Shown piece after piece: positions 12,841-35,015 of a DNA stretch of 64,000 nucleotides; the stretch's first letter is position 1, and every line of letters begins with the position of its first letter. The stretch spans positions 3,199,267-3,263,266 of the forward strand of contig NC_133238.1 of the NCBI RefSeq assembly GCF_040436345.1, written 5' to 3'. This stretch comes from Pagrus major (taxonomy: Eukaryota; Chordata; Actinopteri; Spariformes; Sparidae). Both the position numbers and the translations under genes were made by a program. The notes beneath the pieces were generated by a model. The model was given only the letters and a program-made list of their open reading frames with translations. It was not told the DNA's origin and made no database searches.

Positions 12841-12849
12841 AGGAGAACA

Positions 12850-13565: not shown

Positions 13566-15850
13566 AATAATAATAATAATAATAATAATACATTTTATTT
13601 GTATAGCGCTTTTCGTGGTACTCAAAGACACTTTACAGGTTAAAAAGCAGAATAATAAAAACAACATAATAAAAATACAAAAAGAGACAAGTTATACATT
13701 AAAAACAGTTTTAAAAAGGTGAGTTTTGGTGAGTGTTTTGAAAGTAGTGAAGTCTGTACAGTCTCTGATGTGTGTGGGGAGGGAGTTCCAGAGGGAGGGG
13801 GCAGCTACTGAGAAAGCTCTGTCGCCCCAGGTTTGGTGCTTGGTGCTGTGTGGTGGAGTGAGGAGATTTGCGCCGGAGGAGCGGAGGGTGCGGGACGGGT
13901 TGTGGTGGTGGAGCAGGTCAGTGAGGTAGGGGGGGCCTGGTTGTGGAGGGCTTTGTGAGTGAGGAGGAGTATTTTGAATTGAATCCGTTGTGGGACAGGG
14001 AGCCAGTGGAGTTTTTGGAGGATGGGGGTGATGTGGTCACGGGTGCGGGTGTGGGTGATCAGGCGAGCAGCAGAGTTCTGGACATGTTGGAGTTTATTTA
14101 GCAGTTTGGATGGTGTGCCATAGAGGATGCTGTTGCAGTAGTCAAGTCTGGAGGTGATGAAGGCGTGGATCAGGGTTTCTGCAGCAGAGAAGGAGAGTGA
14201 TGGTCGGAGACGGGCTATGTTTTTGAGGTGGAAGAAGGCAGTTTTTGTGATTTGATTTATGTGTTTTTGAAAGGAGAGGTTGTTGTCAAAGATGACTCCA
14301 AGGTTGCGACTGTGTGGGGAGGGAGACAGGGTGGAGTTGTCCAGGTTGAGGCAGAAGTTGTGAGCAGTTTTGATGAGTTATTTGGGGCCGATGATGATCA
14401 TGTCCGATTTGTCGCAGTTCAGTTGGAGGAAGTTAGTTTGCATCCAGGATTTGATTTCAGTGAGGCAGTTGGTGAGTGTGGAGTGGGTGGCAGTAGTGAT
14501 GGATTTTGTGGAGATGTAGATTTGTACGTCGTCAGCGTAGCAGTGGAAACGGAGACCATGACGGCGTATGATGTTGCCAAGGGGGAGCATGTATAGGATG
14601 AAGAGGAGTGGACCAAGCACCGAACCCTGGGGGACACCTTGGGACAGATGAGCAGTGGAGGAGGTGCAGTTGTTGATGTGGACGAACTGTTGTCTGTTAG
14701 TGAGACAAGATTTTAAGCAGGAGAGGGCAGTGCCGGTGATGTTGAGGGAGGATTCGAGGCGGGAGAGAAGAATGGAGTGGTTGATGGTGTCGAAAGCTGC
14801 AGTGAGGTCCAGGAGGATGAGGATGCTGAGCTGGCCGGAGTCTGCAGAGAGGAGGAGGTCGTTAGTGACTTTGAGGAGGGCTGTCTCGGTACTGTGTTGA
14901 GCGCGGAAGCCAGATTGAAAAGGTTCGAACAGGTCAGTGGAGATGAGCTGGTTTCTGAGTTGAGTGGCGACGGTGCGTTCCAGTATTTTTGATAAGAAAG
15001 GGAGGTTGGAGATGGGCCGGAAGTTTGCCATAATGTCAGGGTTGAGTCCAGGTTTTTTGAGAATGGGGGTGACAGCTGCCAGTTTGAGTGATTGAGGGAC
15101 TGAACCAGAGCTGAGGGAGGAGTTGATTATTTTTGTGATTAGGGGGGAGATGGCTAGAAGACAGTTCTTGACCAGGGAGGATGGGATAGGGTCCAGGGCG
15201 CAGGTAGGGCTTTTCATTCCTGTCAGGATGGTGGACAGGTCCCTTGGAGACACAGGGGAGAATTGAGACAGGGGTTGAGAGGTGAGGGGGGGGAGGGGTG
15301 GGTGATGGAGCAGACAGGGTAGGGGTAGGGGAGGTGGACAGGTTGCTGTAGATATTGTCGATTTTCGTTTGGAAATATGAAAGGAAGGAGTTGCATTTAT
15401 CGGTTGTGAAGGAGTTGGAGGTGTTGTCAATGGGTTTGAGAAGTTTGTTTATGGTGGAGAAGAGAGCTTTGGGGTTGGTGGAGCCAGATTGAATGAGTTG
15501 GGAGTAGTAGGTGGAGCAGGCTTTAGTGAGAGCATCCTTGTATTGTTGTAGATAGTCTGTATGTGCTAGGAGATGGACAGTTAAACCAGTTTTCTTTGCA
15601 GGTCTTTCAAGTTGACGTTTGTGGGATTTCATCTGACGGAGTTCAGGAGTGTACCAGGGAGCAGAGTGAGTAAATGAGACTATTTTGGTTTTGATGGGAG
15701 CCAGCTGGTCAAGGCAGGAGGAGAGCATGTCGTTGTAATAGTTGACGAGGTCGGAGGGGTTGTCAGACAGCGGGGGGGAGGCAGATATTTGACTGTCAAG
15801 AGAGGCTGAGAGGGCTGGGGGGGATTTCAGGTTTCTGTAGGATATTTTGC
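13566..15850 (-). mobile_element. L2-type LINE, 5'-truncated, inserted in the Gypsy integrase
   Basis: The element reads leftward. Its 3' end is the AAT-type tail at 13566-13590, next to the fish L2 signature TTTGTATAGCGCTTTTC. The reverse transcriptase (frame 15430-14378) has LLDLTAAFDT, SQGVPQGSVLGPLLF and the YADD active site. An upstream frame (15728-15036) overlaps it out of phase, so there is a frameshift near 15.2-15.4 kb. A stop at 14378 separates the RT from the C-terminal domain, which continues in altered frames to about 13700. The Gypsy reading resumes at about 15851. This copy is dead. Confidence 0.85.
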
Positions 15851-16632
15851 GTTTGTCAAGAAGAAGAGTCTAGCTCTCAGACAAGTCTGCGAGGGCATGT
15901 GACTGCATTTTGCTACAGGTTGCGACAGACCTGTGAAGTTGCTGGTGAGAACCTGAAGAGGACTTGGACCAAAAAAAGGTCTGGTTTGACCAAAAAGCCC
16001 GTACTTGCTCATTTGATGTAGGGAATCAGGTTTTAATTGTATTACCTGTTGTTGGGTCTCCCCTTGAAGCATGTTTTTTGGGACTGTATACTATGGAGGA
16101 AAAGATTGGAAACTTGAATTACATTGTTTCAACAACTGAGCGCCGAAAGAAACATTTGCGTCACATTAACATGATGAAACCATATCATGCTCCAAGTGAC
16201 AAAGGAAACAGAACGGGTAAACCCTAGCTGTTGGGTGTGCTGTAGTGAGCTGACTCATTGCACAGGAACAACCACAGTTTGGGCCAGTGGTCCAACTTGG
16301 CAACTCTTTGATCCCGGCATATCTTGATGGTTGTCTCATTTATGCCCAGAAGAAAAGGCAGATGATGCATCTCTATTGTGTAAGTTTGAGAGTATTTTTT
16401 CGGATGTACCGTCTGAGACAAATGTTCTGGAGCATGATATATAGATGTGGTTGATGCTAAGCCTTTCAAACAACACACGTACAGAGTCAATCTGGAGAAA
16501 TGTGCTTTGCTCAGATGTGGACTACATGGTTGAGCATAGCATCGCCAAACCTAGTAACAGCTCACTGAGTTTGGCCTGCACAAGTCTGCAGTTCTCTTCG
16601 GACTTTCGTAAGCTCAACAGTGTAACTGGATT
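15851..16632 (+). pseudogene. Gypsy integrase C-terminus and start of reverse transcriptase (broken)
   Basis: The block 15964-16200 carries KVWFDQKART, VLPVVGS and RHINMMKPYH, the C-terminal part of Gypsy integrase just after the catalytic core. Near 16440-16632, in two frames, come DAKPFKQHTYRVN and then VDYMVEHSIAKPS and DFRKLNSV, the start of a Gypsy RT fingers domain. The RT therefore begins only about 200 bp after the integrase end, which gives the INT-RT order. The RT stops abruptly at 16637, where the large transposon enters. Confidence 0.8.
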
Positions 16633-16637
16633 CCTAC

Positions 16638-16936
16638 TATGGAGCTATAATTGGTGCAAAACGATTTGCAAATGCGTATCTCAATCTGTGTGTGTGTAGT
16701 CAGATCTGTGTGTGCGTGTTCAGATCTGTGTGTGCGTATTCAGATCTGTGTGTGCGTGTTCAGATCTGTGTGTGCGTATTCAGATCTGTGTGTGCGTGTT
16801 CAGATCTGTGTGTGCGTGTTCAGATCTGTGTGTGTGTAAAAAAAATCCGTATCTGTATTCAGATTTGCAAGTGAAGACAAATCTACAAATGCATGCAAAG
16901 ATCTGTGAATGCGTACACAGATCTGTAAGTGTACAT
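16638..16936 (+). repeat. Left terminal inverted repeat with 7-copy array of a 20-bp unit
   Basis: After the first 50 bp there are seven tandem copies of TCAGATCTGTGTGTGCGTRT (16698-16835), then AGATCTGT-bearing sequence to 16936. The same block, with five copies, lies in inverse orientation at 34752-35010; the 40-bp length difference is exactly two units. AGATCTGT-like motifs continue singly to about 16990. Subterminal repeats of this kind are often transposase binding sites in DNA transposons; that role is inferred here. Confidence 0.9.
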
Positions 16937-17481
16937 AAATCTGTAAATGTGTAAACAGATCTGTAAATGCGTACATAGATCTGTAAATGTCTGTCATCAG
17001 TTACAACTCAGCCAGGAGCTCTCGACTGGCTGTCTTTTTACACGTGACTTTTGCTACAGTTCTGCCGTGGCAGATCTGCAAATGTGTAGAAAAGATTCGT
17101 GTGTAACTTCACTTTTCCTTTGCCCTGAGCTCAGGGCTCACAGGCTCACGCTGCCTGGCTGCAGTAGCAGTACAGCCTACACACCACGAGTCGGCGCGTA
17201 GCACCCAGTGAAGTTACGCGTGTCATTGTTGGGGTAACACATGAGCGTTGCGCGTTGTGATGTTGCGAGGCAGACCACGATGGATTCTCGATTGTTTGCT
17301 GTAAGTAAAAGTTCATGTTTTAGCAGTAACTTAGTTGTCAGAAGTAAAATTCTTAAAATGAATTCTTAAAATGAATTATCAGTAATGTTATTTATGAACA
17401 AGTTACGTTTGCTCAGCTTGTGTGTCACCGAGCAAATATATCAAGTAACGTTAGCACTACAAGCTAGCTAAGGTAACTGCT
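16937..17481 (+). other. Left-end-only segment carrying the HECT gene's first exon
   Basis: The right end lacks this 545-bp block: there, the equivalent of 16936 joins directly to the equivalent of 17482. It holds more AGATCTGTAAATG motifs, a GC-rich stretch (17090-17280) without a TATA box, and the first coding exon of the HECT gene at 17280-17300. It probably contains that gene's promoter. Either the right end lost it or the left end gained it. Confidence 0.75.
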
Positions 17482-20400
17482 CCCAGTAACGTTGGCTGAA
17501 AATGTTGTTGCCCACACAGGAGGTCATAGGAGGGTGAATTAAATGTTATTTAGTTGTAAGCAGGGTGCAAAGGCGATTCTCTCTATTAGCTGTGAACTCG
17601 CCAAATGTGCCAAATGTTAATGCTAGAGTTACGTTACAACGTCTGAATTAGCATAGCAACTTTATAAGTGCCTCTGACCAATAAGTCTACTGATAAGTCA
17701 GCGGGACAGTAATTTAGAAGTAAATTATTAACTTAAGGAGTAACGTTAGCTATCTGTTATTGTCTGTTTTCTTTCCTATTTGAGTTCTTCATAATAATCT
17801 TAGTTAAAATGTCGCTATTTGAGTTAAAACTCATGTTTTTGACTTGTTTCTGTAGGATCAGAGTCCAGGCCCAGAGAAGGATGTGGAGAGTGTGGCCAGA
17901 AACCTGATCACACTCATCCAACAAAATCTTGGGGGCAGTAGTGAAGGAAGAGCATCTGCAAACCCCTCACCAAGAGCAGCCACTGACTTCAATCCTCCAC
18001 ACAGGGCAGCTGCCATCTTCAACCCTTCGTCCAGGACAGCCACCACTATGCAAACATCAGTAGCCATGTTTCCATCCAAAGTGATTCGCATTACTGGGCA
18101 ATGCGCATTAAAAGAAATTCGAATCATGTGTGTTTCCATCAAAAGAACGGACTTTGGTGAAAACTACAAATTCGCGCGAGTTTTCTAAGTCACGCGAGAT
18201 TTTCCGCGGGTTGGCATGGCAACCAGCCTGTAAACATTCCGTCGTCTTCCTGCCGGTGTTTTGATGTGGTGTTTTAATGGTTTACAATGGAGAGAGGACT
18301 TCAGTCATTAATTACACTCGCTCAAGTGGTGCTCGATCTTTCGGCGCAGTTGGTCCTGGCCATTAGAGGGGCTGTCAGGAGGAGAAGACAGCAAGCTGCC
18401 TTAATTAATGCTTGATTCGCATACAGCTGTTTCCATCCCATTCGAATCAACCAAAACCCGGCCATAGCGAGCGTATTTCATTTTGTGCGAATCAGGGGAT
18501 TTTAATGCGAATCACGGCGTTTCCATCACCATTTTCCCGATGCGATACATCTAGATGCGCATCTAAACAGCTGATGGAAACGCACCTAGTGTCATCAGAA
18601 ATGCAAAGGTAGTTTAATAGTTTAAAGTTGCAGTTCTGTACATACACACACGCACAATTTGGAAATCTTATACATATTACATTGGAGTGGCCTTGTAGAG
18701 TTGTATCAATAAGTAGAACTGAGTGATATCTAAAAATATTACCCATGGTAATTGTAAATATTGTTTTAATCCTTTATTGTTTGTCACAGATCGTTTCCAG
18801 GTCTTTTCAGGGGAAAGAGGAGGTTTGCAACCCCACCACAGACAGTCACTCGCAAATTGCAGTGTTTTCAGTTTTATGTCCTTCCCTGTCCTGCAACTGT
18901 GAATCCAAAAGGAGATGAGGAGCTAAGGTTTTGCCAGGCAGGGCTAGGTATGAGAATGGTCTCATTGCCAGAGGATGCAGCTCATGATCAGGTCAGGTGC
19001 AGTAGTGTTTTATACCAATCACTTTACTGTATATTAGTTATAAGTTCACATTAAAGTTCTCCGTCGCTACGACGGATTTCCGTCATTCAAACTTAACAGA
19101 GGCGACTTGTGAGATCAATGTAGATCGGAGGGGAACTGTTGGCTGATGTTTATTGACAGATTGTCACACTCTACAGCCAATGGTGTCGTTAACAGCGGTG
19201 CTCGCCTGACCAATGACAGTGTAGTGACCCACACAGGGCGGGATCTCAACACGGAGCGGCGCTAAAGTTTAGCTGCTTAGCTAGCAAGGACTCGTCGCGC
19301 TGCTACGTTATCAATTATTTTTTGAGTTTAGTCAGCACGTGAGAACTCGTCTGACACGGAGAGTCTCCTGTTGTGTGCTACATGTGTGAAATAACAACTA
19401 TAGTCTGGACTTTGTCTGCAGTGTATCTGTGTAAACGGCTTCATTCAGCGTCTCTCCCTCCTCTCTGAGTTACCATGGTTACAGGAACGTCCTGAAACTT
19501 TATAATGATCAATAAGAAGCTTTTGGTTAGTTTGACTGTACAGAATCATGAATGTTGCCTGATTGTAGCTCAATGCTGAAATCTTGTATTATAACATAGA
19601 ACAAAGCCTCAGAGCTTCTTTGATTATTAACAGTAAGTGATGACAGAAAGGTGATAACTCGTCATCAGACTGACAAGGCTGCAAAAGTTGCTGCTTGTAT
19701 GATGTATTTTTCTGTTAAACGATAAGAGGCTCACTTTAAACAATATTATTATTATTAATAATAGTAATTAATAATAATAATTATTATTAATAATAATAAT
19801 AATAAATAATGATGATGATGATGATGAGAAGAAGTAGAAAAATAGCGTACTGAAAAGTTCTGTAGATGGTTGATTATTTGAAAGAGTAAAACTTGAGAGA
19901 AGCTTGGCAAAAAAAAAGGCACAGATTGATTTCATAGATTGAAAATTACATTGAAAAGACAAAAAACATTTTAAGTGTGAATAGAACAGCTGTTCAGATC
20001 ATCCTCCTGTAAAACACTGTTGGTCAAATATTTAAACTTGATGTCTGCATTAGAGAACATGGTGTGGGGTGAGGCTGTAAATCTTATCTTATTTTTTTAG
20101 CACGTGTCAAGTAAAATGCCCTGTAACATGTTTTTACAAATTACAAATTGGGAATTTGACTTGGCTACAGCTCGAAAATACATTTCAGTCAAAAGATTTT
20201 TTTTTGCTTTAATCCATGAGTTCAGATGCAGTTTTCCATAGCATAACAGACTGTAATTTTATGGTATTTAAAAGACAGCAGACCTTGTGCAAGGACCACT
20301 ATTATGAACAGCTTTGTATTAAGTGTCAGGCTTGAGTGATTTAAGAGAACCTGTCACATCTACCAATGTTCTTCGATTTCAGTTTTTCTCTCACAAACAA

Positions 20401-23400
20401 AATTCATGCCATCTACAGACAGTCTCCCTTTTCCAAGTGATTTTGTTCTGAATTATCTATAATGTGTCACAGAAATAAACACAAATCTGCAATGATGGGT
20501 GTAAATACAAAGTGATGCAGCCAATATTCACATTGTACCAGCCCAGCCTCAAAAGGCCCTACTGTGACAAGCCAAAATGTACACTGTGAAAAAGACCTGT
20601 AGTGCAGCAGGTAGCCTTATATTAGGCTAATGACTGGTTGTCATATGCAGACCTACTCATGTACACGTGGCAATCATCAAGTTGAAGTGATTTTAAGCAA
20701 ACCTCAAAAAAGACATAGACATTAAATGAGTTTTGTCATTATCAAGAGTAAGTTGACGATCAATGTTTGCCATGTTACTGTCTTTCTGTAGATATCTGAA
20801 GTACTTTATCATGAGTACCCTAAACTCCAGAGCCTGAAAGGCTCCTGGATGTTTTACAAGGCTGCAGGTAAACACATCCACTGAAGTAATATATAGCACT
20901 TTTGTTTTTTTAGACTTTGAAGTCTATTTATTATCATACTGTGGTGCATTGCTGTTGTTCACATCAGAAACCTAAATATGCATAAAGTGTGTACAGTTTT
21001 ATTTGGCAGTATTATTTTTTAAATTTCCAAGCTACTTTTTGTGCTTCCATTACACTTCTGTAATTTATTCTTGCTGCACCCTAAGTCATGTCATTAGCAA
21101 ACGTCAGTGTTGACTGTGATTTTTATGTTTCAGGGGGAAGTGGACGAAGGCGGCTGACAGTTATCAGCCCCCAGGTGGAAGGCTACACCACCGCTCAATT
21201 GAAGACGGCATCAAATGGTGGAAAAAACATGCTATACATAGCCCCATTACAGAGTGAATTAGATGTTACCCCCCTTGCCACAAATGCCCCAGAATTTTCT
21301 AAAATGCCAAAGGCAACCTGTGGCAATTGTCAGGAGACAATGCCATTGCATCTTTTGGCCCTCCATGTTGACAGTTGTACAGACAACAAAGACTGTGAAG
21401 TAAGTTGTGTTCTTACATTTCATTTGGCCTTCATGATGACATTGAGTATTTGAGTAACCTATTTTATTTGTTGTGTAACCAGGACCAGGACTCTAACTCA
21501 GATGTTGAGTGTGTCTCCGTGTATAACTCGTCAGTTGATGATACCGATGCCGTCACGGCCACAAAATCCACATCCTCTAAAGATGTAAGTACATCTTCAG
21601 TAAAAGTAGCTTGAATATCCCATACTGTCTTTCTTTCTTCTTAGTAATTATTGTTATTGGTTGTGGAGTTTGTTGAGTATGCTCTTGCCTGTTTTATATA
21701 CAATGCATACTATAAGCAAATTATTTAAAAAGCATTTGTAAAGTAATTATTCTGTCCTAAGCTTCTTGATCCATATAAACTGTTGATCACTGTAACCGTG
21801 ATCACTATAAATGGTTTACACTATTTCTTAATCTGTGTATTTTTTCCCTGGTAATTATTTGATCGTGGATCTGTCACACTCAGGCATACACTCACTCCAG
21901 TGTGTATCAATCTTTCTCTTGTTCCACAGCTGGAGAGCAGATAAACTTTTAACATTATTTTTTGGGAAAATAGTTGAATAACAACTATTTTTTTTCTATC
22001 TATTCTGTGAAGATGAACACATGTTCAACAGCCGCATTGTCAGCCATGGCTTCCTGCCCCATCTGTAGCCAGTTGTATCCTACGCACAGTCTGGAGGTGC
22101 ATGCAAGTTTCTGTGGAGAGAGGTACTTGTCTAATAGTTACTTATCACAGGTGTTAAAATAAGATAACATTACTTTATTCATCCTCAAAGGGAAATTCAA
22201 AAAATTATGAGTATCAAGAATGTTTGCCGAACCCACTTTTTTTTTTGGCAGCATCTCTAATGTCAATGGGAATACTGTAGCACCATCTCCACCAAGAACA
22301 GCAGCAAGCACATCAGGAGGTATGTCAGTGGAAGGGAACATGTCCCACTCTGTCCCTCCAGCATGCACCTACATTTAAACTTATTGTGTTCTCTATTTTT
22401 GATTTGTTGTAAAAATAGATTTATATACTGACATTTTCTTTGCCCTGTCAGACTGGAAGACTGTTGCAGATCCCAAGAGAGCTGTTTGGCTATTCACCCA
22501 AGAGGTGCTGAACAATAAGAACGGTTCTGAAGAGAATCATTTCTCAGTGGACTTGAGGAAAGACCAGGAAGAACAGGACAGGTCCTATGTGAGCTTCTAT
22601 AAGCGCAGAAACGTGGAGTGGGCTTCGCCACTGAGATGCACACTTGAAGGTGCGCTGTTTTTGTGAAAGTTGAAGTAACTAATAATTATTAATACATAAT
22701 TTGGCTATTTTCTAAACTTGTTTCCACATTAGGGTATTGCTGTTTAATACTTAAATATGCCAAGTTATCTCCATCTTTCCCAAAGGCGATGCTGCTGTAG
22801 GACTCGGTGTTAACCGACATGTTATGTCAACCATGATGCTGAAGCTGAGAACTGGATTCCAACTCAATCTTGGTCAGTGTTTACGCAGCACTCCATTTCT
22901 AACATTTCAAATGTAAAAGCACTGAAGGTATTGTTTGGGCTACTTTAAGGCAAAAATGCTGTCATAATTATAAGCTATCATAAATATAATTTTTAAATAG
23001 GAAACGGTGCAATCACAAAGATTTTCGAGGGTCAGTCAGACCACTTGGTGCCTGCCAACTCTGCTGTGATGGTGGAGAGTGAGCTTTTCCTGATGGCAGG
23101 GCGAATGATGGGGCATTGCTTCTTGTATGGAGGTCCTGGTTTCCCTGGGCTCAGCCCAGCCATTACACATGTTCTGTGTGGTGGTTCCATCGACACTACC
23201 ACAGTCATGATTGAAGACTGTCCTGATTTAGACATCCGTGAAACAATCCAGCTGGTAAGTTTAGTGACCTTAATTTTACTGCATATTGTTAGAGAAAGCC
23301 TTGTTTTCGCCTTGTTCAACATTGTTAAAGCAAGGGCTATTAAGTTTGTAGAGAATTTCTGGAGTACTTCTACTTTCCAAGTTTTTGCATCATGAGTAAT

Positions 23401-25495
23401 TTAATATTCCTCTTAGATTTTGTAATATTCTTTGCATAGCTTTTCAAATCTTTTCTTTCTTCCTACCTCTTTTCCCGCCTGCCTTCCTTCCTTCCTACCT
23501 TCCTATCGGTCTCAAGTTGACAGAGAAATCTGCACTTGAAGATGAACAACGTGACCGTGTTGTCAGCCTTTGCATGGCGTGGGACCTTCCACTTCCAACT
23601 CTAAACAACATGAAGTGGCTCCATGACAAGCTGCTCCTGCATTCGGTAAAATAGTCATTTGCAGTGTTAATATCTTGATTTTTAGTTTTACATAATTTGG
23701 TGATATTGGTGTTTTTGTTTATAAACAAAAGAAATCTGGAGTATATCCAGACTTATAATGCTGTTTTACACAGGTTCTGGGGCGATCAGCTAAACAAGTG
23801 AAGCAGTTGAGAAAGGGACTGAAGGAGACTGGCATTTGGCCACTTCTCTCCAATAGAGCAGATGTGGTAAAGCTGCTTTTCCCTTCTGAGAATGAAGCTG
23901 AGATTACACCCCAGGTAGATGAGATTAGTTTTTATACATTAATTATAAGTCCCATTCAGTATGATTAAAGAGCATATTGCAGGTTAGAGACCCCATTCAA
24001 TCAATGTTTAAAAATAATGTCGGAACTAGTTCTTCTTTAAAATATACTTATAAATACACTATAGAGTTTTTTGGAGATGTTTTTGTGAGAAAATTTTACT
24101 TCCGCATCTGAAAAAGACGAACCGGAAGTGACGTAACAAGAGGGAGCCCGGTCAACTTGAACTGTATTAAAACAATGGATCCTAATACAAGTGCTGACGC
24201 AGAGGAGACTTTAAATGTGTATAATTACACATATGACAGACCGCAGCCCTACAACTATGAGCCTGCTATGCGCCCCAGAGAGCAGGGAGAGACCAGGAAG
24301 AGAATTAATGGTCAGAGGAGAGAGATTGAGCTGTGGTGTCAGGACAATCAATGTCTTGGTGAGGGACCGGTGTTAGCTTGTAGACATGTTAGCCAGGGAT
24401 GATAATCCTCTGGTCTAAAGTGAGCGCCACACACAACTGCGTTTTCATAGCTGACGCCACAGTGAAGTCCCGTCTCCTCAGCTGCACAAAATGCACCCAG
24501 GCTCGGAAGATAGCGCCGTTTTTTCCCTGTTATAAGGCTGTGGACTCCATGTCCTGACAGGCTGGAGTTTGTTCAAGCACCACAAATGCAATAATTTACC
24601 ATGACGATGATAAATGAATGCAATACAAAACTACTGAAGACACACTGGCTCTCTACAACAGGACCACTCTGACTGATTACTACCTACTCTCCACACTGAG
24701 CTATTGCAGAGCCTAGCATGCAACTCCCTCTTGTTACGTAATATGACGTGATGTTGAAAAAAAAGCGTTTGTAGACGCTTTGCTCAAAACAATCACTTTT
24801 TAAGTTAAATTTGTGCCCTCATGTCTTGAAAAACATTTTCAATCCTCCATTAACTTTTCAAATGGTATTTCTTAGACAAAATTACATATACATTTTGTAA
24901 AAAGTTTAACCTGCAATATGCTTTTTAAGTCTTAAGACCATTCTCTGTCTTTGCAGATGATCCTTGCACACGTTACATGGCCCACGCTGAATCCAGAATC
25001 TGATGAAGATGAAGTCTCTGTCGAGGCTGTCACTCGGGTCATGGCTTACTTCAGGACTTTTATTGAAAGTGGTGTGTTATTTCAACATTGCTTTTCCGCA
25101 AATGCATTTTAGTTTTTCCATTGAATGACACTCCCTTCCTTCCTTTCTCCTGCTTGCCTTCTTTCATCCTTGTCTGCCTTTTCTATTGAATGACACTTCA
25201 TTATTAAACTGTGAAAGTAAAAATGTGATGCCTGAGTAGAAAGCACATATCTCACAGGTCTGTACTGTCTTTATCAGCGTCTTCAGAGCATCTGAAAAAT
25301 CTGCTGCGGTTCTGGGTGGGCTGGGAAGTCCCACCCAAGGAGCTGATTGTGAAGGTAGCAAGTGTCCTTCTTCCCAGGGCCTTGACATGCTTTGAGACCA
25401 TCAAGTTGCCTCATCATTACACAACCTACAGAGACTTTGAGTCCGACTTGGTCGCTGCCATTAGAACCTTTGACACAGGGTTTGGTCTTGTTTAA
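17280..25495 (+). CDS. Transposon-borne HECT E3 ubiquitin-ligase-like protein with two UBZ4-like fingers (exon 2 interrupted)
   Basis: Fifteen exons: 17280-17300, 17856-18060 joined to 18599-18608, 18790-18991, 20792-20867, 21134-21399, 21483-21584, 22013-22122, 22252-22319, 22452-22649, 22786-22872, 23001-23254, 23517-23645, 23774-23914, 24957-25071, 25278-25495. Every junction has GT/AG and matching phase, giving 733 residues. Two zinc fingers share the spacing C-x2-C-x11-H-x3-C (residues 234-253 and 309-328), like the RAD18-type UBZ ubiquitin-binding finger. Residues about 354-733 are a HECT domain, ending LLPRALTCFETIKLP with the thioester Cys near 699 and GFGLV at the C-terminus. The protein should accept ubiquitin from an E2 and pass it to a target. 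It resembles fish genes labelled G2E3-like. A 532-bp MITE in exon 2 brings a stop at 18188, so this copy is probably inactive unless the insert is spliced out. Confidence 0.85.
18061..18592. mobile_element. 532-bp MITE inserted in exon 2 of the HECT gene
   Basis: The ends are imperfect inverted repeats around YGTTTCCATC (left TAGCCATGTTTCCATC; right, reversed, TAGGTGCGTTTCCATC), with more GTTTCCATC copies inside. CATCAG flanks it (18055-18060 and 18593-18598). Removing it with one CATCAG restores exon 2 at 215 nt, with exactly the phase exon 3 needs. The family is not identified. Confidence 0.8.
19000..20780. other. HECT-gene intron 3, low-complexity tracts
   Basis: This 1.8-kb intron contains an AAT/ATG-rich tract (about 19743-19826) and a short palindromic segment near 19060 (CCGTCGCTACGACGG). 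I see no exon. The rest is AT-rich with no recognised element. Confidence 0.5.
23969..24924. mobile_element. 956-bp TTAA-flanked non-autonomous DNA transposon in HECT intron 13
   Basis: The left end AGAGCATATTGCAGG matches the right end, reversed (AAAGCATATTGCAGG). TTAA lies on each side (23965-23968 and 24925-24928). A TTAA target is typical of piggyBac and Kolobok elements. Inside is an open frame at 24175-24359 starting MDPNTSADAEE and containing YNYEPAMRPREQGE, followed by a donor-like G|GTGAGG. It looks like a first coding exon of an autonomous parent, perhaps of the P2X7-tail-like cysteine domain proteins common in fish; that resemblance is weak. Confidence 0.8.
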
Positions 25496-25584
25496 AGGCA
25501 CAAAAAGAAAGATGCTGGACATTCATCTTGAAAGTTCTTAGTGGTTCTAATGTTTTATTATGAGTCCTCTCCTGATAATTTTGT

Positions 25585-26003
25585 ATTCACTGCAGTAAGC
25601 TCAAACTCTTACCAAGTATATTTGTGTTATTTCTAGTCAAAATGTCTAATTTCTAGTCAAAACAAATCTCATTACACTTTTAATAAGACATCTAAAAAGT
25701 AACTTGTTTTTAGACAATTTTTACTTGTTTCAAGCTAATTTTCACTAGAAATAAGTAGAAAAATCTGCCAGTGGAGCAGGATTTTTTTCTTGTAATAAAA
25801 TACTAAAATAATTAGATAAGCAGATTTTTCCACTTATTTCAAATGATAATTTGCTTGAAACAAGTGAAAACTGTCTAAAAACAAGTTACTTTTTAGATGT
25901 CTTATTAAAAGTGTAATGAGATTTGTTTTGACTAGAAATTAGACATTTTGACTAGAAATAACACAAATATACTTGGTAAGAGTTTGAGTTTACTGCAGTG
26001 AAT
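25585..26003. mobile_element. 419-bp fold-back (palindromic) MITE in the HECT 3' UTR
   Basis: Nearly the whole element is one inverted repeat. The left arm from ATTCACTGCAGTAA and the right arm ending TTTACTGCAGTGAAT pair for about 180 bp each around a short AT-rich centre near 25780. The transcript would form a very long hairpin. It lies 90 bp after the HECT stop codon and before the likely poly(A) signal. Confidence 0.88.
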
Positions 26004-26330
26004 TCCTTTAACACAGGATTAGAGCAGTTCACAGTAAGGAATGTTTTTTATCAATGTGCAGTGTTTACAGTTAGTTCTTGATGTCTGCACTTCTAAAGCT
26101 GTTGTTATCCTGGTTAAGTTCCTGCCATATTGCTAACTTGGGTATGGCCAGTACAACTGCTCAAAATATTTCAACCCACAGAGAGCAGTGAATTGTCAGC
26201 TGTTAACCCTATCAAGTTAACCGTTTTGCACTCTAAAGGTTTACACCATTTAAACCTCATACATTAATTGTGGTACTACCGGTGCTGTTAATATTTTTAC
26301 TGTTTTTCCCTTGCCTTGTTCAACATTGAC

Positions 26331-26336
26331 AATAAA
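26331..26336 (+). terminator. Possible poly(A) signal of the HECT gene
   Basis: An AATAAA hexamer lies about 840 nt after the HECT stop codon, beyond the fold-back MITE. It is the first clear plus-strand AATAAA outside that MITE. No cleavage site can be verified. Confidence 0.4.
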
Positions 26337-27206
26337 GTATGTTAAGAACAGCAGTGTGGCCATTGTGATTTTGAGATACTGATATTTATAACTTCCATAA
26401 ATTAGCATCTTATGCGAACCAATATTACCTAGGTGCAAATTTTCTTTTATCCTGAAGACAGTTGTCAGTTCTACAATGGGCAAGACTGTGAGTATGACAG
26501 ATATTAGACCTATAGGACTTTAGAGTAGCCTTTATTGTGTTACTACAAAAATTAGACCTTAATGTGCTAGCTATTACAGTTGTTGGAAACTTACATAATT
26601 AACACATTAAAATCAAAATTTCTTTTGCCTTCATTAAAAATTCAAGAATCCATTAATAAGCAAAAATATTTTATTTCAAGTTACTGCCCCCTAAAATGAG
26701 ATGAAGAACTACACCAGTAGTAGGACCAGTTTAGGACTAACTGAGAGTATCTCTTTGTTTAACGTTGTAATTAAAGTTAGGCTCTGTTGTTGGCTTCCCA
26801 ACACATTTTTAAAAAAGGACGAGAGAACAACAGAGTGTGACAGAGTTGAGCAAGCAAACAGAGACTATGAAGACAGAGCAGCTGTAAAAAAGAGGGAATG
26901 ACAGAAACATTATTTTATAATTGTGTATTGTAAAGCAGAAATGTAAAAAAAAAAATACATCCAACACTCAGCAGATGACTTGGGCCTACTGTAGAAACAG
27001 ACGCTCTCTGCATTTCTCCTTTTCATTACAATACCCAACTCACAGTGACAGTGGCATTTGCAATCCCATATGGTTAGCCTTGTCAATAGTATTGCAATAT
27101 TACGTTTCTTGCGACAGCCCTGCATCAATCAATAATAAAAATAATCATTTGTTTTGTCGCAGTCCTCATGAGAATTAGTCAGTTGGGAGTCAGACAGGCA
27201 TATTGC

Positions 27207-27540
27207 TTACAGCTGACGGTTGATGATGTTCTGCACACATTCAACTGTGGCCATGTAAATGTCCATTCCATGACAATCAGAGGGGCCAAGAGGATCTATG
27301 GATCTTTTAAGCTGCTCCATCTCCAATTCATCCAGAGAATTCTCAAGGACTGGAACATGGACACCTTGGCTGTTGTCACCTTGAATTCCACTGCACTCCC
27401 ACTCAATATTTGGCACATGCAGTTCCTATAGAAAGAAATAACTGTTAAGGTGACAATAAGCTGCACAATTATCTGAATGTTGCTCTGATAAATGAAAATG
27501 TCTTTAAATTTGAGTTACATCTGAATGTAAATAGAGGATT

Positions 27541-27598
<58 letters not shown>

Positions 27599-30500
27599 CA
27601 TACATACATACATACACACATACATACACACACACACACACATATATATATACACGTATACACACACACTCCTATTGTTTACTTTTTCTGTTTATATTTT
27701 TTATCTGCTCATAGTTTTTATTGTATATATGTTGCAGTATTCTTTGCTATTTATACTTTCTGCTTTATACTGTATAGTGTGTGTATTTTTAAGTGTCCAT
27801 ATGCTGCGGTAACACAATTACCCAGTTTAGGATCAATAAAGTGAATCTATGTATTTATCTATTAATTTATTGACATTAAGAGCAGAAATTTTCCCAACTG
27901 CTGCTACAACGGAAGGTATGTTAATATGACTCAAAACTAAATTTTGAAAAACATAAAAAATATCTTAATTCTTTACATTTACTAAAATTAGGTTGGTGGT
28001 ACTACTGTGGGACAAAAAAAAGTATGATATTTTACATACACCTGAGACTTCAGGGTCTGGAACAGGACACAGCATTTGTCCCACTTCCCACAGTTGGTTG
28101 GGTGACAAGTTCTGTTCTGATCTCAATGGATGGTTGTCCCATCCATCATGGAACACATCAAGGGAGGCCTGGAGCCGCGGGATGAAGACATAATGGCAGC
28201 TGAACAAGTGGAGTTCATTTGACAGATCAAGATGTCCTTCATCTTCTAAGGTGTGGAGAACACTATAGAAGACATTTGTCACTGACATGTAGACATCTCT
28301 CCAAAGTCTCTCAATCCTGGAAAAATAGCAGAAATACCTTAGTAAATAGAGGTTTTCTCACAACAGTATGGGTGGTTCATGAACATTCATGAACAATATA
28401 ACACATATATCAATATCATATTTAAAGTTTGATAAGCGCAACATTTATACAGACAAAATGCCAGACAGCGGGTTATCTACAACTTACTGGAAATTCATCT
28501 GATAAACCAAGCTAAGACAACAGCGGTCTATCAACCATAATCAGTGGTGGAAAGTAACATTTACTTGTAGCTTACTTAGCTACAATTTTGAGGCACTTGC
28601 TACTTTATCCTTCCACTCCACTACATTTCAGAGGGAAATATTGTACTTTCTACTCCACTACATTTATTTGACAGCTTTAGTTACTTTTCAGATGAAGATT
28701 TGACACAATGGATAATATAACAAGCTTTTAAAATACAACACATTGTTAAAGATGAAACCAAAAAGCAGTGTGTAGTCGGGCTTACATTTCAGAAGTCTGA
28801 GCTGTTAACAGCTTCACCAAATAGTGATTTTTCCCTCTAAAATTCTCACATGCTTTCATTTCAATAAATGTTCAAATGATCCAATATTTCAGCAAAAATC
28901 AGAGATTAAGTCCAAAAACTGAAACAGATTTGTGTATCAGTACTTTGTTTTTTCTTCTTTCCTCTCCTATTAATCATCTCACCATCCCTCAGATGTATCT
29001 GACCCTTTGGTGGGACCTGACCCTTATGTTGGGAACCAGTGGACTAAACATAAAGGATCTCAATACTTTGTCGACCACAGCCGATTTTTTGTGTGGTGTT
29101 GGATGCCATTGAATCAAAGCAGTCCTTTTCAATGAGGCTGACTCATGTGAAATAGATAGTGGAGGTTGTTGGCCAGAGTTGTTAAATGATTTTTTCCAAG
29201 TTAAACATTTTATTTGGTGTAGTTTCTGTTTATATTTTTAGCATTAACTTCAACTTTTTGGATTATAACAATGGACTATCTAGTTATTTGACAGATGAAA
29301 GAGAGATAACAAGACATAATGCTTCAGTTACTTAAACAGATGTCCCAGCACTAGTATTTTAAGGCCCTCTGCTAACTTTGATCTCTGTAGGTGATTGCAA
29401 GAATATCAGCAATGTTTTCTAAAGCATTGCTAGGTTGTCATAGGCGGATAAATACATTACAAATACATTTTTAGTGAGTTATATTACATGACGAAATACA
29501 TGGCTACTGGTTAATAGATGGCAGGTAAAGTAACCCAGGTGCTTTATGATATCTTGCAAGACATTGTAGGTGTTTCGGTGTAAATTGTGGTGGATGACAT
29601 GTTAAAAAATACCTTTGATTGTGAACACTCTTGCCAGAGATAAAACTCCCAATTCCAGTGCCACGAATTGAGAACATGAGACGTGCTACACCAACATTTT
29701 CGACTCCTTGATCAGCTCTTATCCTGAAAAATGTACATAAATACAACACAATTTTCATGGAATTTTGTGGAACACAAAAAAATGTTATGTTGTTTTTTTT
29801 TTGTTTTTTTTACATATCACAGGACAGTGAGTAGACAGGAAACTTGGGGAAAGCGAGCGGGGGAATGACATGCAGTAAATGGTCCAGCCGGTAGTCAGTT
29901 GAATGGTGCACACCCTTTATAGCCAATTTTTACAGTGACCTAATTGGTCAGTAGTCAGTTGGTTGACACATTTTGATATCGATTGTCTGAATTAACTTGA
30001 TTACCTGTGCAATATAGGTCACCATATGAATTAACCTGGTTAAAAATGAGCCTGCCTTATGTGAAGTTATTAGTTGTGGGGCCATATTCACACAATATCT
30101 TAAACCTATAGTAACTCCTAACTGCAAGACTTAGAGGAAATCCTAAAAATAAGAGGTGTGTCTGCCCTACCTTAAGGACTCCTAAATTTTTGGTTTAAGA
30201 GTACATCTTGGAACATTTTAACACTAAAAGAAGCTCTAATGCCTGTGAATAGTAAGAGAAGGCTGAGAGGACTCCAAAGTCACCTCAGAACCAAGACCTG
30301 CTCACAATCAGTTAGTTAGCTTTTTGGTAATGCAACTCATCACGTCAAGTGTTTGGAAAAACATTTTTATAAACTAACTTTTAAAAACAATTTTTCATTG
30401 TGGCAAGTTAGTACCCAGTTGGCTCACCAACAAGTCAAAACAATAAACTGTTTGCAGCCCTGATGAACATGATATATCTCTGCCGTTTGTCCAAATTATT

Positions 30501-33500
30501 AATCAAACCAAAATGAGCCCAATTTGTTTATATGTTTAGAGTACAACCACACAGATTAAATAAAGCTGGTTTTGTTGCCAATACTGGATTTTAAGGAGAA
30601 TATAGTGCTATATGTAGGACTACTATATAAAGTACTTGAGTGAATATTACTCTTAATTAAATGGCTTCTATCTAGTTTGTTGCACTCCTCTGAATGAAAT
30701 ACTGATTTACCTCTCAACCAAAACTCAAGTTCATTCATGAAAAATGATGTCCTCCATAGAAAAGGGGTCAACCCTGCCCATTTTCTTAGTTTAGACATTA
30801 TCTTTTTTCTTTACTATAATTGTCTCTCAGCAGCTTTGTGACAAGGTCTCAAGAGGAAATCTTAGCATCATTTTGGAGGACTCCAAGTGGTAAGATACGA
30901 TACTTTGTGAATACTAGGGATGCAACAATATTCAATATTTTATTGAACCGCTCAATACGCCCTGTTATGTTTAAAGGCAAACAATACAATACTATGTTTG
31001 CTGTTTAACGTGATTGGATACTGTATATGTTTTTTATAATAAGGTTTGTGGTTTGACTAAATCTGTGCTTTTAATTATTTTTACATGCAATATTGCCTTT
31101 GCTAGTGTGAGTAGTTTTATATTAAGATATCGAAACCGTATCGTTACCGTGGCCCAAAAACTTTGATGCATACCGAACTGTGGGTAAACTCTACCATTGC
31201 ATCCCTATTAAATACAGCCCATGATTCTGTACTTTTACTCTTAATGTGCTTGTACTGTAAACAGTTAGAACTCTTGTTGCTGGGTCCAGTATACTGTTAT
31301 AGTTACTTAGCAATATTATCATGTACATTGTACCTCAGTGGGAAGCCATATTTTTCCACAGACTCCTTGAAAAAGGCCAGGGTTGTAGATGACAGATTGT
31401 TATTTGCAGCTCCAAGGTACATTATCTGAAACAAAAAGAGCCATAATTAAAAAACATATATAATTTAAAACATGTCTATGGCTGTGTCCAAAATCACTCC
31501 TGTATTAACTATTGCCTATAAAATCAACACCGATTTGTTAACTCAGTAGTGAATAGAGATTTCAGACAATTACTTAAAGTGTTGTGCAAAAAATGTTTAA
31601 TTTTCTATTTTTAAAAAAGGTCCAGAATACGAGTCGTGAGTGTGTAGGTTTTAGCTGTTTTGAGGAACTTTGGATGGAGCTGTGCCGAGTAACAAAAATA
31701 AAATAAGTTATGTAACCAATTACTGTAACTGCCTTAACACTGCTTAATAATCATTATTTGTTGTCATTACTGACAGATGTGAAGTCGCAAGATGGTAATG
31801 TTGTCATCTATAAAATGTGGTGCGTTGCATTGTGGGATTGTTAGCAGGAATTGGTGTGCCTGCTATGGACACCATGGCTGTGTCCAAAATAATTCCCTAC
31901 TTATTAAAACAGTGCTCTACATATACAGTCATTTTGTTTTAGTGTCCAAAAGAAAGTCAATTTATCAATTATGTAGTGCCTTCTTAAAAGTAGAGCCTGA
32001 TATGTACACTACAGTGATTATGTAAAATGGTTATGATTTTTATATGTCCAAAATGTCTATTTACTGCTCACTAATGAATAAACGATTTAGTGTATATTAT
32101 ATAGGGAGTACTGAATGGGACAGTGGTTTTGGACAAAAACTTTTTAGTAGACTGGATATACATAGAGTATAGTGAACTATATAGGCATTTGGGATGTCCC
32201 GGTCCGATCAGAAATCAAAACATTTTCAAAGGATTGGAATCGGGTGGAAAAGATCAGGATCACTGATGTATCAAAAATTTAACGTTAGGTTGTCCATACG
32301 TCCATGTTGTAAACACTACACATTTGTAGAGTGGGCGCACAGAAATATACAGTTGACTAGTGCTAGTTGAGTCATTAAGGCTCTATGGTGCATATTCAAT
32401 GTCAACGAGTAGGCGACAATGGCTTCTACTACTGTATATTTCTATGAGTGGGCGTACTGTTCAGGCAACATGAGTGGCAAACCTGTGAAGTGGGTTGGGA
32501 CGAGGCGTGACCAGGAACAGGGTAGTGAGCGAGGGGATTGGATTGAAGGGTCCGACCAATAGCAGCCATGCGGACCGGATGGCTGCTATTAGTCAATTTC
32601 TTTGCAGTTTTGCAGGCGTTAGAGAGAATAGATTTATGTGGTTCCTTTTGCTCTTCACATTGTGTAGGTCGTACTATTGGGCCATAGCCACCATCTAAAT
32701 GATGTTAATAATAATGATCAATCTTTGACAACGTAGACCATAGCTTTAACATCCACTAACACTCAGAAATATGAGTACTTCAACTTAACAGAACAGGATC
32801 TAGCGTAATCTCTCTCTCTTTCTTATAACACACATAACAGTAACGTGGCCCATTTCGTTACAATAATAATTAAAAAAACCTTAAAGGACAACTTGAATGT
32901 GTTCTTTCATTTTTTACAACATTGCCAAAGGATCGGATCGGGACTCGGTATCGGCAGATACTCAAAATCAAATGACTCGGAGGCAAAAAAAATTGATCGG
33001 GACCTCCCTAATTAGGCATACATTTTGGAAAAAACCTACGAAGGACATGCATCATTACTGACTCAGAATATCTATTAAAAACAACAAAAACAATTATACA
33101 TTTTACACAAACCCACCTTCCTGGAGTATCCATCCACTCCGCCGAAAATAACAATGTTATATCTGTTGTGAGAAGAACAAAAATGATTAAATGAATGAAC
33201 ATAGGTTAACATGGAGAGATTGGAATGTAAAGACTTAAGTACAGCACATTTAGCTTTAAAAAATATTTATCTATAGTTTTCAGTTACATTGTATAAACGC
33301 ACAAATTCATTCTTACCGAATCAGCTTGTGGTTCGTGTCAATATGAACAAGAGACCTTGGGCAAGGCACCGAATATGTGCGTCTCACAGTACACCCCATT
33401 GAGGTCAGTCTTGTCAGCACACCTATGGTGTCCACTCTGTGCATTGAAGCCCTTACACGCTCCCACTGAACCAGGCACCCCCTGGATTTAAGGGACCCTT

Positions 33501-34681
33501 TCATCATTCGGTACCCACAGTGTGGCATTGTCAACTTTATGTCAGCAACTATGGCATCCAACTCCTCATCTGTCATTTGACTATACAGTGAAGTCACTGA
33601 CATGTTGTTTTCTGATAGTCTTCTGTGGACTGTATGTCTCGACACTCCCAACAGGATTGCAATGGTTGTGACAGATAAAGGTATTTCAAAAAGATGCTGA
33701 AGATACTCAGGGCTAATATAAAGCTTTGGGCGCCCTACATGATCTGCATGTGTTTGCACCTGAAGATTTGGTTCCAAATTTTGGACATGCTCCCTTTCAT
33801 CCCTGATCAACCTACACAGTTCAGATAGTGTGTCCATGATGCATACTGGAATGTCAATGCTACTTGAAATGGCACTACAGAACACCAGGTCTTGAGTACA
33901 AACAAATTCCATGCGGTCCAAATCCAATGGCCTGTGATTTAAAATATGTAGCAGCCGAGAATGTAGCCTCTCAAGGATGTAGCGACGAAGCAGAACCTGC
34001 CAAAGATAAATGATTTGCCATTAATTTAACCAGCAGCCTGTTCCTCACACAGTCTGACAGTTCATATGGAGAAATGTGAAGTGTGCTAATGACTGATAGC
34101 GGACACGCGGCTGTCAATTTAGAATGATTCTGACTCACTAACATAACAACGGTGGTAAGAACAAAATTGGCCACTGCGGAAACTTCATGAATCCTACAGT
34201 AATTTTAAAAGTAAGGACTTTTCCACACACAAATTAGTGATTGAGGCCCATTGTCCAGGCAACGTTTAACAATCTGTATAGAAAAACATTTGTGGTCAAG
34301 GAAACATTATTTGATACACCTGTAGCAGACCATAATAAGTAAATGTGTGTCATGACTCATGAGTGATGACTAACGCTGTACCATTTAAAATTGACAAAGG
34401 ATGTCACAATGATACAGCCTATAGACTAGTATTGCTGCTTACATTGAAAGACCGAGGGAAACAAGCTAATGGCTAGTAATGAACAGCTCTGTGCATTGGT
34501 TCAAATAAATGGTTTTTCAGTAGCAGGCTTTTGAGAAGCTCCTTTAGTTTTTTCGGCCGCTTCAGTAATTACACATGCGGGCTGACTTTATATTGCGTTT
34601 ATTTAAGAAAAACAAACGTTTACTCACCCACGAGTTGTTCGAAGATCCAAACGACTGGCCTGTGTCATTAACAGCAGCCAT
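27207..34681 (-). CDS. IS3/retroviral-integrase-type DDE transposase of the 18.4-kb element
   Basis: Exons, reading leftward: 34628-34681 ([11 protein letters not shown]), 33317-33996, 33117-33162, 31334-31425, 29613-29723, 28042-28316, 27207-27425; about 490 residues. A helix-turn-helix lies near residues 123-147 ([20 protein letters not shown]). An IS3 OrfB-like segment follows ([15 protein letters not shown]). The catalytic triad reads D238 (HIDTNHK), D295 (RADQGVEN) and E330 ([10 protein letters not shown]), spacing D-x56-D-x34-E, as in the rve fold. Exons 1-6 join with correct splice sites and phase. Exon 6 ends in phase 1 but exon 7 opens in phase 0, so either a one-base change has occurred there or I have missed a small exon. 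The start lies just inside the right terminal repeat, so that repeat probably supplies the promoter. It presumably cuts the element's ends. Confidence 0.87.
27545..27850. repeat. TA/CATA/CA microsatellite and LINE/SINE-type tail in transposase intron 6
   Basis: (TA)n runs from about 27549, followed by CATA and CA tracts to about 27670. Positions 27805-27860 (ACCCAGTTTAGGATCAATAAAG) resemble a common fish retroposon 3' tail. This is the only sequence between the last two transposase exons, so no hidden exon is obvious. Confidence 0.7.
28540..28800. repeat. Common teleost dispersed repeat in transposase intron 5
   Basis: It begins CAGTGGTGGAAAGTAACA and continues with ACTCCACTACATTT twice and TTGACAGCTTTAGTTAC. 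I recognise this as a very abundant fish repeat, probably a non-autonomous DNA element, but I did not find both ends. Confidence 0.6.
30915..31207. mobile_element. 293-bp hAT-like MITE in transposase intron 4
   Basis: Its ends TAGGGATGCAAC and, reversed, TAGGGATGCAAT are inverted repeats. The 8-bp flanks (GTGAATAC and TTAAATAC) match at six of eight positions, as expected for an old hAT insertion. Confidence 0.75.
31480..32150. repeat. MITE-like repeat(s) with TGTCCAAAAT ends in transposase intron 3
   Basis: ATGGCTGTGTCCAAAATCACT at about 31481 and ATGGCTGTGTCCAAAATAAT at about 31878 face a GGTTTTGGACAAAAAC near 32130. This suggests one or two overlapping elements with that inverted end. The boundaries are uncertain. 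Confidence 0.45.
32188..33010. mobile_element. 823-bp non-autonomous hAT-like element in transposase intron 3
   Basis: The left end (TTGGGATGTCCCGGTCC) and the right end, reversed (TTAGGGAGGTCCCGATC), are imperfect inverted repeats. The flanks TATAGGCA (32180-32187) and ATTAGGCA (33011-33018) agree at six of eight positions. No transposase frame is present. Confidence 0.7.
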
Positions 34682-34686
34682 CTGAC

Positions 34687-35010
34687 ACATTTAATTCACC
34701 CTCCTATGACCTCCTGTGTGGGCAACAACATTTTCAGCCAACGTTACTGGGATGTACACTTACAGATCTGTGTACGCATTCACAGATCTTTGCATGCATT
34801 TGTAGATTTGTCTTCACTTGCAAATCTGAATACAGATACGGATTTTTTTTACACACACACAGATCTGAACACGCACACACAGATCTGAACACGCACACAC
34901 AGATCTGAATACGCACACACAGATCTGAACACGCACACACAGATCTGAATACGCACACACAGATTGAGATACGCATTTGCAAATCGTTTTGCACCAATTA
35001 TAGCTCCATA
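34687..35010 (-). repeat. Right terminal inverted repeat with 5-copy 20-bp array
   Basis: Reversed, 34752-35010 equals the left end 16638-16936 except for two fewer 20-bp units. The next block, 34687-34751, equals 17482-17545 (CCCAGTAACGTTGGCTG and onward). Transposase exon 1 begins only six bases inside the point where the match ends. Confidence 0.9.
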
Positions 35011-35015
35011 CCTAC

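Follow-up and report, generated by a model that had tools for sequence, protein, structure and literature searches.

The 64-kb window, that is, the whole stretch of DNA analysed here, contains an 18,373-bp element whose coordinates, 16638-35010, were confirmed as exact. The element is filled by two multi-exon, convergent genes, a DDE transposase gene on the minus strand and a HECT gene on the plus strand, and has termini of the form TATGG...CCATA, with TATGGAGC at the left end and GCTCCATA at the right. A preliminary description of the locus had proposed a single mobile unit with both genes lying between its ends. The exact ends, a perfect 5-bp CCTAC duplication and matching inverted repeats support the first part of that proposal, and both genes are indeed present, with homologues backing their exons. 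The boundary features are the following:

16633-16637, no strand: left target-site duplication, CCTAC
16638-16936, plus strand: outer part of the left terminal inverted repeat, starting with TATGGAGC
16673-16838, plus strand: tandem 20-bp units (TGCGTATTCAGATCTGTGTG), 8.3 copies, in the left repeat
16937-17480, plus strand: 544-bp stretch found in the left repeat only, containing the predicted HECT first exon
17481-17546, plus strand: inner part of the left terminal inverted repeat, 66/66 bases identical to the right repeat
34687-35010, minus strand: right terminal inverted repeat, 324 bp, contiguous
34850-34975, minus strand: tandem 20-bp subterminal units, 6.3 copies, in the right repeat
35011-35015, no strand: right target-site duplication, CCTAC

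The left and right repeats show zero mismatches, the three collinear blocks being identical at 57/57, 213/213 and 66/66 bases, in a count that sets aside the 544-bp left-only stretch and a 40-bp difference in copy number, the left repeat having two 20-bp units more than the right. When up to four substitutions were allowed, the terminal 20 bases occurred at just two sites in 64 kb, which are the ends of the element. The insertion is apparently recent, and the tandem 20-bp units are candidate transposase binding sites. Joining the flanks with a single CCTAC regains the motif DSYPLPRVDDC of a host RT sequence across the junction. With one CCTAC retained, an upstream RKLNSVT stretch and the RT motif lie in different frames, and the two are continuous only when both copies of CCTAC are retained, so that no continuous ORF would result from excision. 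The earlier statement that excision restores the host RT frame thus holds for the motif but not for a continuous frame. A 6-bp duplication that had lost one base at a junction would leave the same empty site as the 5-bp CCTAC.

The transposase gene runs leftwards from the right inverted repeat, and the following parts of it were located:

34628-34690, minus strand: exon 1, with the first ATG at 34690-34688, where the right inverted repeat has its inner edge (repeat end at 34687)
33317-33996, minus strand: exon 2, with weak helix-turn-helix matches and the first catalytic D (HIDTNHK)
33117-33162, minus strand: exon 3
31334-31425, minus strand: exon 4
29613-29723, minus strand: exon 5, with the second catalytic D (RADQGVEN)
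28040-28316, minus strand: exon 6, with the catalytic E (RIERLW) and the PF24764 match
27211-27425, minus strand: exon 7, the last located

Past 27211, the last coding exon could not be located. One exon matches the Pfam rva_4 integrase core (PF24764) with E=1.7e-27, and the DD34E triad is intact, with 34 residues from the second D to the E. Among the 160 listed relatives, D, D and E are kept in 155, 148 and 154, respectively, gaps being counted as non-matching. Retroviral integrases are matched by a structural model of the relative P0001 (pLDDT 72.5), with a Foldseek E of 3.6e-4 and prob 1.00.

The HECT gene begins at the opposite end of the element:

17280-17300, plus strand: predicted exon 1 (ATG, donor gtaagtaa), a prediction without homologue backing
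17856-18608, plus strand: exon 2, split by a nested insertion, 3' limit judged by eye
18063-18586, no strand: nested insertion in exon 2, 524 bp, with ends GCCATGTTTCCATC/GATGGAAACGCACC and TA on each side
18790-18996, plus strand: exon 3
20792-20869, plus strand: exon 4 (ISEVLYHEYPKLQSLKGSWMFYKAA), limits from tblastn
21134-21399, plus strand: exon with the first C2HC (UBZ4-like) finger
21483-21584, plus strand: exon
22013-22122, plus strand: exon with the second C2HC finger
22252-22319, plus strand: exon
22452-22649, plus strand: exon; modelled, together with the next exons, as a HECT fold (on relative P0121)
22786-22872, plus strand: exon
23001-23254, plus strand: exon
23517-23645, plus strand: exon
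23774-23914, plus strand: exon
24957-25068, plus strand: exon
25287-25495, plus strand: last exon, with the C-lobe, the catalytic Cys (PRALTCFETIKLP) and the stop codon; alternative acceptor at 25278
25585-26003, no strand: hairpin-like inverted repeat beyond the gene, 184-bp arms, 96%

Two fingers had been reported in an intact protein of 733 residues; the fingers are confirmed, whereas an intact protein is not, since the 524-bp insertion splits exon 2 and the N-terminal segment of this copy is non-contiguous unless the insert is spliced out. Fingers of the UBZ4 type have the spacing C-x2-C-x11-H-x3-C, which both fingers in the window fit, with weak matches to Pfam zinc-finger families. At least one C2HC finger occurs in 50 of the 98 relatives of the protein, as against 4 of 1960 shuffled sequences. 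Judged by their spacing, the fingers are UBZ4-like and their binding of ubiquitin is putative. The catalytic C-lobe Cys is present in the window and is conserved in 79 of those 80 relatives (98 in total) that reach the column. A model of the relative P0121 (79% identical, pLDDT 79.6) has the bilobal HECT fold and matches the HECT domains of UBR5, SMURF and HUWE1 (E down to 3.1e-14). From the catalytic residue and the modelled fold, the gene product is predicted to be a HECT-type E3 ubiquitin ligase capable of ubiquitin transfer. The hairpin at 25585-26003 is probably a nested non-autonomous element, and a THAP-like reading of 24351-24572 (minus strand) was dropped, as it gave no Pfam match at E<=5.

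All listed relatives that carry a source name are from teleosts. The DDE protein has 1087 relatives versus 98 for the HECT protein, but the HECT search scored its 7999 best candidates, so that the DDE excess may or may not mean that DDE-only families exist. Some fish species have several of the 98 clusters that the HECT relatives represent, and one cluster has 72 member sequences at 90% identity, in which several assemblies may be included. Knipowitschia caucasica stands near the top in both searches, its DDE protein being 70% identical (among the best 120 of 1087) and its HECT protein 56%. The HECT protein of Merluccius polli is 80% identical to that in the window, and no M. polli DDE protein is present among the best 120 of the 1087 DDE relatives. 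Several matches of the HECT search are labelled G2E3-like, in agreement with the earlier suggestion that fish genes of this name are akin to the HECT gene of the element. G2E3 combines PHD/RING-like fingers with a HECT domain. A scan of 18 HECT relatives matched 13 families at E<=0.1, none of them PHD or RING (the HECT protein of the window itself was scanned against Pfam exon by exon), which leaves the HECT domain as the basis of the G2E3 name. Relative P0211 contains a Harbinger-type DDE_Tnp_4 piece and does not match Pfam HECT at E<=0.01; relative P0213 matches DUF4371 weakly, below the threshold. Each of the two may be a fusion created by gene prediction.

Do the two genes travel together in other fish? 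In the cyprinid Leuciscus chuanchicus, a HECT protein (P0139, MVNEERDAR-) and a DDE protein (P0033, MANEERDAR-) have an N-terminal peptide in common. Their match is the best of 13,299 HECT/DDE comparisons, 105 of them within a species, although this rank is descriptive only, the test having been made after one match had been seen. The comparison is confined to rows that have both an initial M and a species name, species labels were assigned by hand, and a common N-terminus was found in only 1 of the 105 same-species pairs. P0139 and P0033 lie on contigs of differing size. Inspection by eye of 98/98 HECT relatives and of the best 120 of 1087 and 120 of 620 matches revealed no adjacent annotated HECT and DDE proteins, and the contig of a DDE protein of M. 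polli (520,746) is not among the five that carry M. polli HECT proteins. LOC143475338 (DDE) and LOC143475488 (HECT) of Brachyhypopomus, on contigs of equal size, were not counted as a linked pair, being 150 gene numbers apart. A BLASTP comparison of 98 HECT with 160 DDE proteins gave 0 matches at E<=1e-3 that would indicate a HECT/DDE fusion, in line with the convergent layout of the genes. Scans of viral contigs with the DDE protein, with the DDE and HECT alignments and with the end sequence yielded no relative and no second copy of the element.

We consider it probable, with moderate confidence, that the element is a recent fish insertion of the IS3EU type (IS3EU/GingerRoot), encoding an integrase-fold DD34E transposase together with a UBZ4-like/HECT E3 as a standing gene that aids transposition. 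The two-gene element MuDR of maize offers a precedent for such an organization, having convergent genes that start at inverted repeats serving as promoters; the role of its second gene is uncertain. In the present element as well, two convergent genes each begin at an inverted repeat, and since each starts in or by a terminal repeat, the repeats probably double as transposase binding sites and promoters, by analogy with MuDR. The two elements differ in that their transposase superfamilies are unrelated and in that mudrB, the second gene of MuDR, is not a HECT ligase. Under the favoured reading, the HECT gene would be the standing second gene of a transposon lineage. The transposase would cut and join the ends bearing the 20-bp repeats, the fingers would draw the ligase to ubiquitin-marked chromatin or repair complexes, and the ligase would ubiquitinate a protein that limits transposition. 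The likeliest class of target would be a host factor acting in silencing or repair where the element inserts, followed by the transposase/intasome itself, whose turnover would permit gap repair.

The latter target leads to a variant that is compatible with the favoured reading, in which the transposase or strand-transfer complex, and not a host factor, is the target of the ligase (for dosage control or disassembly). We regard it as possible, if somewhat doubtful. HIV-1 integrase, which has the same fold, is ubiquitinated via TRIM33 and CRL2-VHL, and a role for its degradation after integration has been suggested, though not proved, according to the accessible part of PMC9603942; the presence of both genes in one element, possibly with matching repeat promoters, would fit too, whereas the fingers suggest recruitment based on ubiquitin instead of on the transposase. 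It could also be that the HECT gene is passive cargo captured by one IS3EU copy or lineage, without a role in transposition. It can be difficult to tell an accessory gene from cargo (PMC6431247, as far as its available text goes), no second pairing was seen in the DNA scanned, DDE relatives outnumber HECT relatives, and exon 2 of the HECT gene is already interrupted. However, the catalytic Cys is retained almost throughout the relatives that reach its column, unlike in dead cargo, the relatives form many clusters, with several per species in some fish, and one species has an N-terminal peptide common to its HECT and DDE proteins. The predicted exon 1 within the left inverted repeat moreover makes the gene look built in and not nested, and on balance we find mere cargo rather unlikely.

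That last feature also bears on whether there are two elements here, a separate transposon with the HECT gene having inserted into an IS3EU element. Nested repeats do exist, at 18063-18586 and 25585-26003, and the matches of P0211 and P0213 could be read in this sense, though they may stem from prediction fusions. Yet the predicted gene has its 5' end inside the repeat of the element itself, and none of the 25 longest of the 146 inverted-repeat pairs in the window brackets the HECT gene alone, which makes two elements improbable. An assembly artefact or a chance juxtaposition is hardly credible; a single window is the basis of the analysis, but the matching inverted repeats, the exact duplication and the RT motif restored at the junction all argue against it.

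Taken further, the reading that we favour would imply a large teleost lineage of the IS3EU type, defined by genes for a transposase and a UBZ-HECT ligase that are both driven from the inverted repeats, in which many G2E3-like genes are the ligases of the transposon and the ligase edits host silencing or repair proteins at the insertion site, as a ubiquitin counterpart of the fungal TET/JBP and kinase genes. We put this forward tentatively, its chances being slightly below even. The pairing suggests that the transposon brings a tool for manipulating proteins of the host cell. If it holds across fish, it would provide a testable DNA transposon with its own E3 ligase and a handle on the host proteins that limit integrase-type transposons in vertebrates, and it would explain many 'G2E3-like' genes, which would need re-annotation.

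Searches by title and abstract start found no literature on HECT-bearing transposons or on IS3EU with HECT, nor any linking the shortened G2E3 protein name with transposable elements in teleosts, and the available portion of PMC12763893 contains nothing on HECT genes. The G2E3-like proteins of fish resemble the ligase of the element in their HECT domain and close sequence kinship, and differ in that the gene studied here sits between transposon ends; the 18 scanned relatives match no PHD family. Burro elements, giant gypsy-like retroelements of planarians, likewise carry a domain tied to ubiquitination, MATH_TRAF, but they are LTR retroelements, and the accessible text mentions no HECT ligase (PMC6431247). 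The earlier guess that the element belongs to IS3EU gains support from its TA..TA and TAYGG..CCRTA ends (PMC10045372; PMC12730594, in the parts available). The IS3EU superfamily, with which GingerRoot is grouped, has TA..TA termini and usually a 6-bp duplication (PMC10045372); the element shares these termini and has an integrase-type DDD/E core and fold, but its duplication, known from one insertion, is exactly 5 bp. Comparable in design are the fungal TET+ IS3EU elements, described as having TAYGG..CCRTA ends, inverted repeats of >30 bp, a TET/JBP gene and an alpha-kinase gene that runs opposite to the transposase (PMC12730594). The element has the same type of ends, inverted repeats >30 bp and an extra enzyme gene, which encodes a HECT E3 and not a kinase or TET/JBP protein. 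Alongside those fungal genes, IS3EU would, should the pairing hold across fish, be notable as a superfamily that has repeatedly acquired enzymes with which to modify host proteins or DNA.

The element measures 18,373 bp (window 16638 to 35010), with TATGGAGCTATAATTGGTGC as its left terminus and the reverse complement of this as its right terminus, and CCTAC abuts it on each side. The right inverted repeat is uninterrupted and 324 bp long. The left repeat matches it in three collinear blocks without a mismatch (57/57, 213/213 and 66/66 bases), but contains two additional 20-bp units as well as, past base 299, 544 bp absent from the right side; the subterminal 20-bp units amount to 8.3 copies at the left end and 6.3 at the right. 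A fuzzy scan with the first 20 bases, allowing up to 4 substitutions, detected no further end in the 64 kb besides these two.

When the flanks are fused with one CCTAC, LDSYPLPRVDDCVDCV... reads across the junction, which we take to be a Ty3/gypsy-type reverse transcriptase (RT) motif. The preliminary description held that excision restores the host RT frame; the motif is indeed restored, but the frame is not, because the RKLNSVT piece 5′ of the motif lies in a different frame in the one-CCTAC empty site, and the two are continuous only if both CCTAC copies are kept. Thus, the RT relic was not an open frame at the insertion site. An integrase H2C2 zinc-binding piece at 12658-13179 (plus strand) perhaps belongs to the same gypsy-type element as the transposon's host site. 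A fragmented LINE-like reverse transcriptase relic occupies 13805-15869 (minus strand; RVT_1, E 2.5e-34).

The DDE transposase gene consists of seven minus-strand exons from 34690 to 27211, backed by tblastn with fish homologues and encoding 494 residues; the C-terminal end of the protein was not found. Screening 5.8 billion proteins at E<=1e-3 brought up 1087 relatives. Among the best 120 of these, those with a named source are teleost proteins (P0078 also carries a mammalian label), the first listed coming from Knipowitschia caucasica (70% identity over 84%), and P0007 of Cyprinodon tularosa showing 81% identity over 66%. The transposase has a complete D, D, E triad, with 34 residues separating the last two. 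Of the 160 listed relatives, 155, 148 and 154 have the first D, the second D and the E, respectively; the remainder show gaps (3, 8 and 3) or other residues (2, 4 and 3). The structural model of the relative P0001 (pLDDT 72.5, pTM 0.44) matches retroviral integrases, and a helix-turn-helix in the 5′ part of the gene gave weak Pfam matches, under the curated cut-offs. Public databases give the Labeo rohita relative P0009 the name 'Botulinum neurotoxin type D'; this looks like a mis-annotation, since the Pfam domains listed for it are the ones typical of the DDE proteins.

HECT exons encoding 557 residues lie between 21134 and 25495 (plus strand), and the following exons were placed 5′ of them:

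17280-17300, plus strand, predicted HECT exon 1
17856-18608, plus strand, HECT exon 2, split by a 524-bp insertion
18790-18996, plus strand, HECT exon, 5′ of the 557-residue part
20792-20869, plus strand, HECT exon, 5′ of the 557-residue part

The 524-bp insertion nested in exon 2 (18063-18586) has TA on each side and short imperfect inverted ends, and a hairpin repeat whose 184-bp arms are 96% complementary is located just 3′ of the HECT stop codon (25585-26003). Scoring 7999 candidates yielded 98 HECT relatives, the best being P0121 (79% over 98%) and P0122 of Merluccius polli (80% over 84%); all those with a named source are teleost, P0144 also carrying a mammalian label, and several go by the name G2E3-like. 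The Pfam HECT domain was matched by 18/18 chosen relatives and a PHD family by none of these 18. Of the 98 relatives, 80 extend to the position of the catalytic Cys, and 79 of them have it. C2HC fingers were found in 50/98 relatives (two in 23), compared with 4/1960 shuffles; their absence in the other 48 is explained in part by many of these being short. The P0121 model (pLDDT 79.6, pTM 0.68) matches the HECT domains of UBR5, SMURF and HUWE1.

Several observations bear on whether the two genes form one system. A single pair of ends encloses both genes, which are convergent. The 544-bp block of the left repeat contains the predicted HECT exon 1; on the other side, the right repeat ends at 34687, and the DDE start codon (34690-34688) adjoins its inner edge. 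This layout, with predicted gene starts at the repeats, speaks for one system. The alike N-termini of two Leuciscus chuanchicus proteins, HECT P0139 (MVNEERDAR) and DDE P0033 (MANEERDAR), also count towards it; their score of 35 is the top of 13,299 N-terminal comparisons (105 same-species). Behind it, pairings of P0139 with related DDE proteins from other fish reach 32, 32 and 30, and 31 is the highest score of an unrelated pair. Against one system, however, none of the remaining 104 same-species pairs scores above 20, P0139 and P0033 are on contigs of different length, no annotated HECT/DDE neighbour pair was seen among the relatives listed, none of the five M. polli HECT contigs carries the M. 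polli DDE protein listed, and DDE relatives far outnumber HECT relatives (1087 and 98, the latter from the 7999 candidates scored).

Several species have more than one cluster among the 98 HECT relatives (7999 candidates scored), M. polli having five, and the 72 sequences in one stickleback cluster may come from several assemblies. This fits mobile genes without proving the point. A G2E3 match among unclassified candidate repeats of Cottus, mentioned in a passage of PMC5638112, agrees with a repeated G2E3-like gene. Elsewhere in the window, an open 306-aa ORF at 42898-43818 (plus strand) matches DDE_Tnp_4 (E 5.9e-30), a Harbinger-type transposase, and 53751-57963 (minus strand) is probably another transposon-type gene block, with a 182-aa ORF matching DUF6729 (E 3.9e-59) beside long ORFs (243 and 379 aa) that matched no Pfam family at E<=0.01.

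The element's probable superfamily, IS3EU, is already known; among the papers listed by our literature searches none paired it with HECT, and Repbase may already hold fish entries with a HECT ORF. One can suppose that the transposase would bind the 20-bp repeats, cut at the TA ends and join them to the target with a 5-bp (or 6-bp) stagger. The HECT ligase, recruited by its fingers to ubiquitin-marked complexes, might then modify a host silencing or repair factor, or else the transposase complex. The latter target is testable because HIV-1 integrase, which has the same fold as the element's transposase, is a known ubiquitination target, according to a passage of PMC9603942. Accessory enzymes are not foreign to the superfamily, since fungal TET+ IS3EU elements, as described in part of PMC12730594, carry a TET/JBP gene as well as an alpha-kinase that runs opposite to the transposase.
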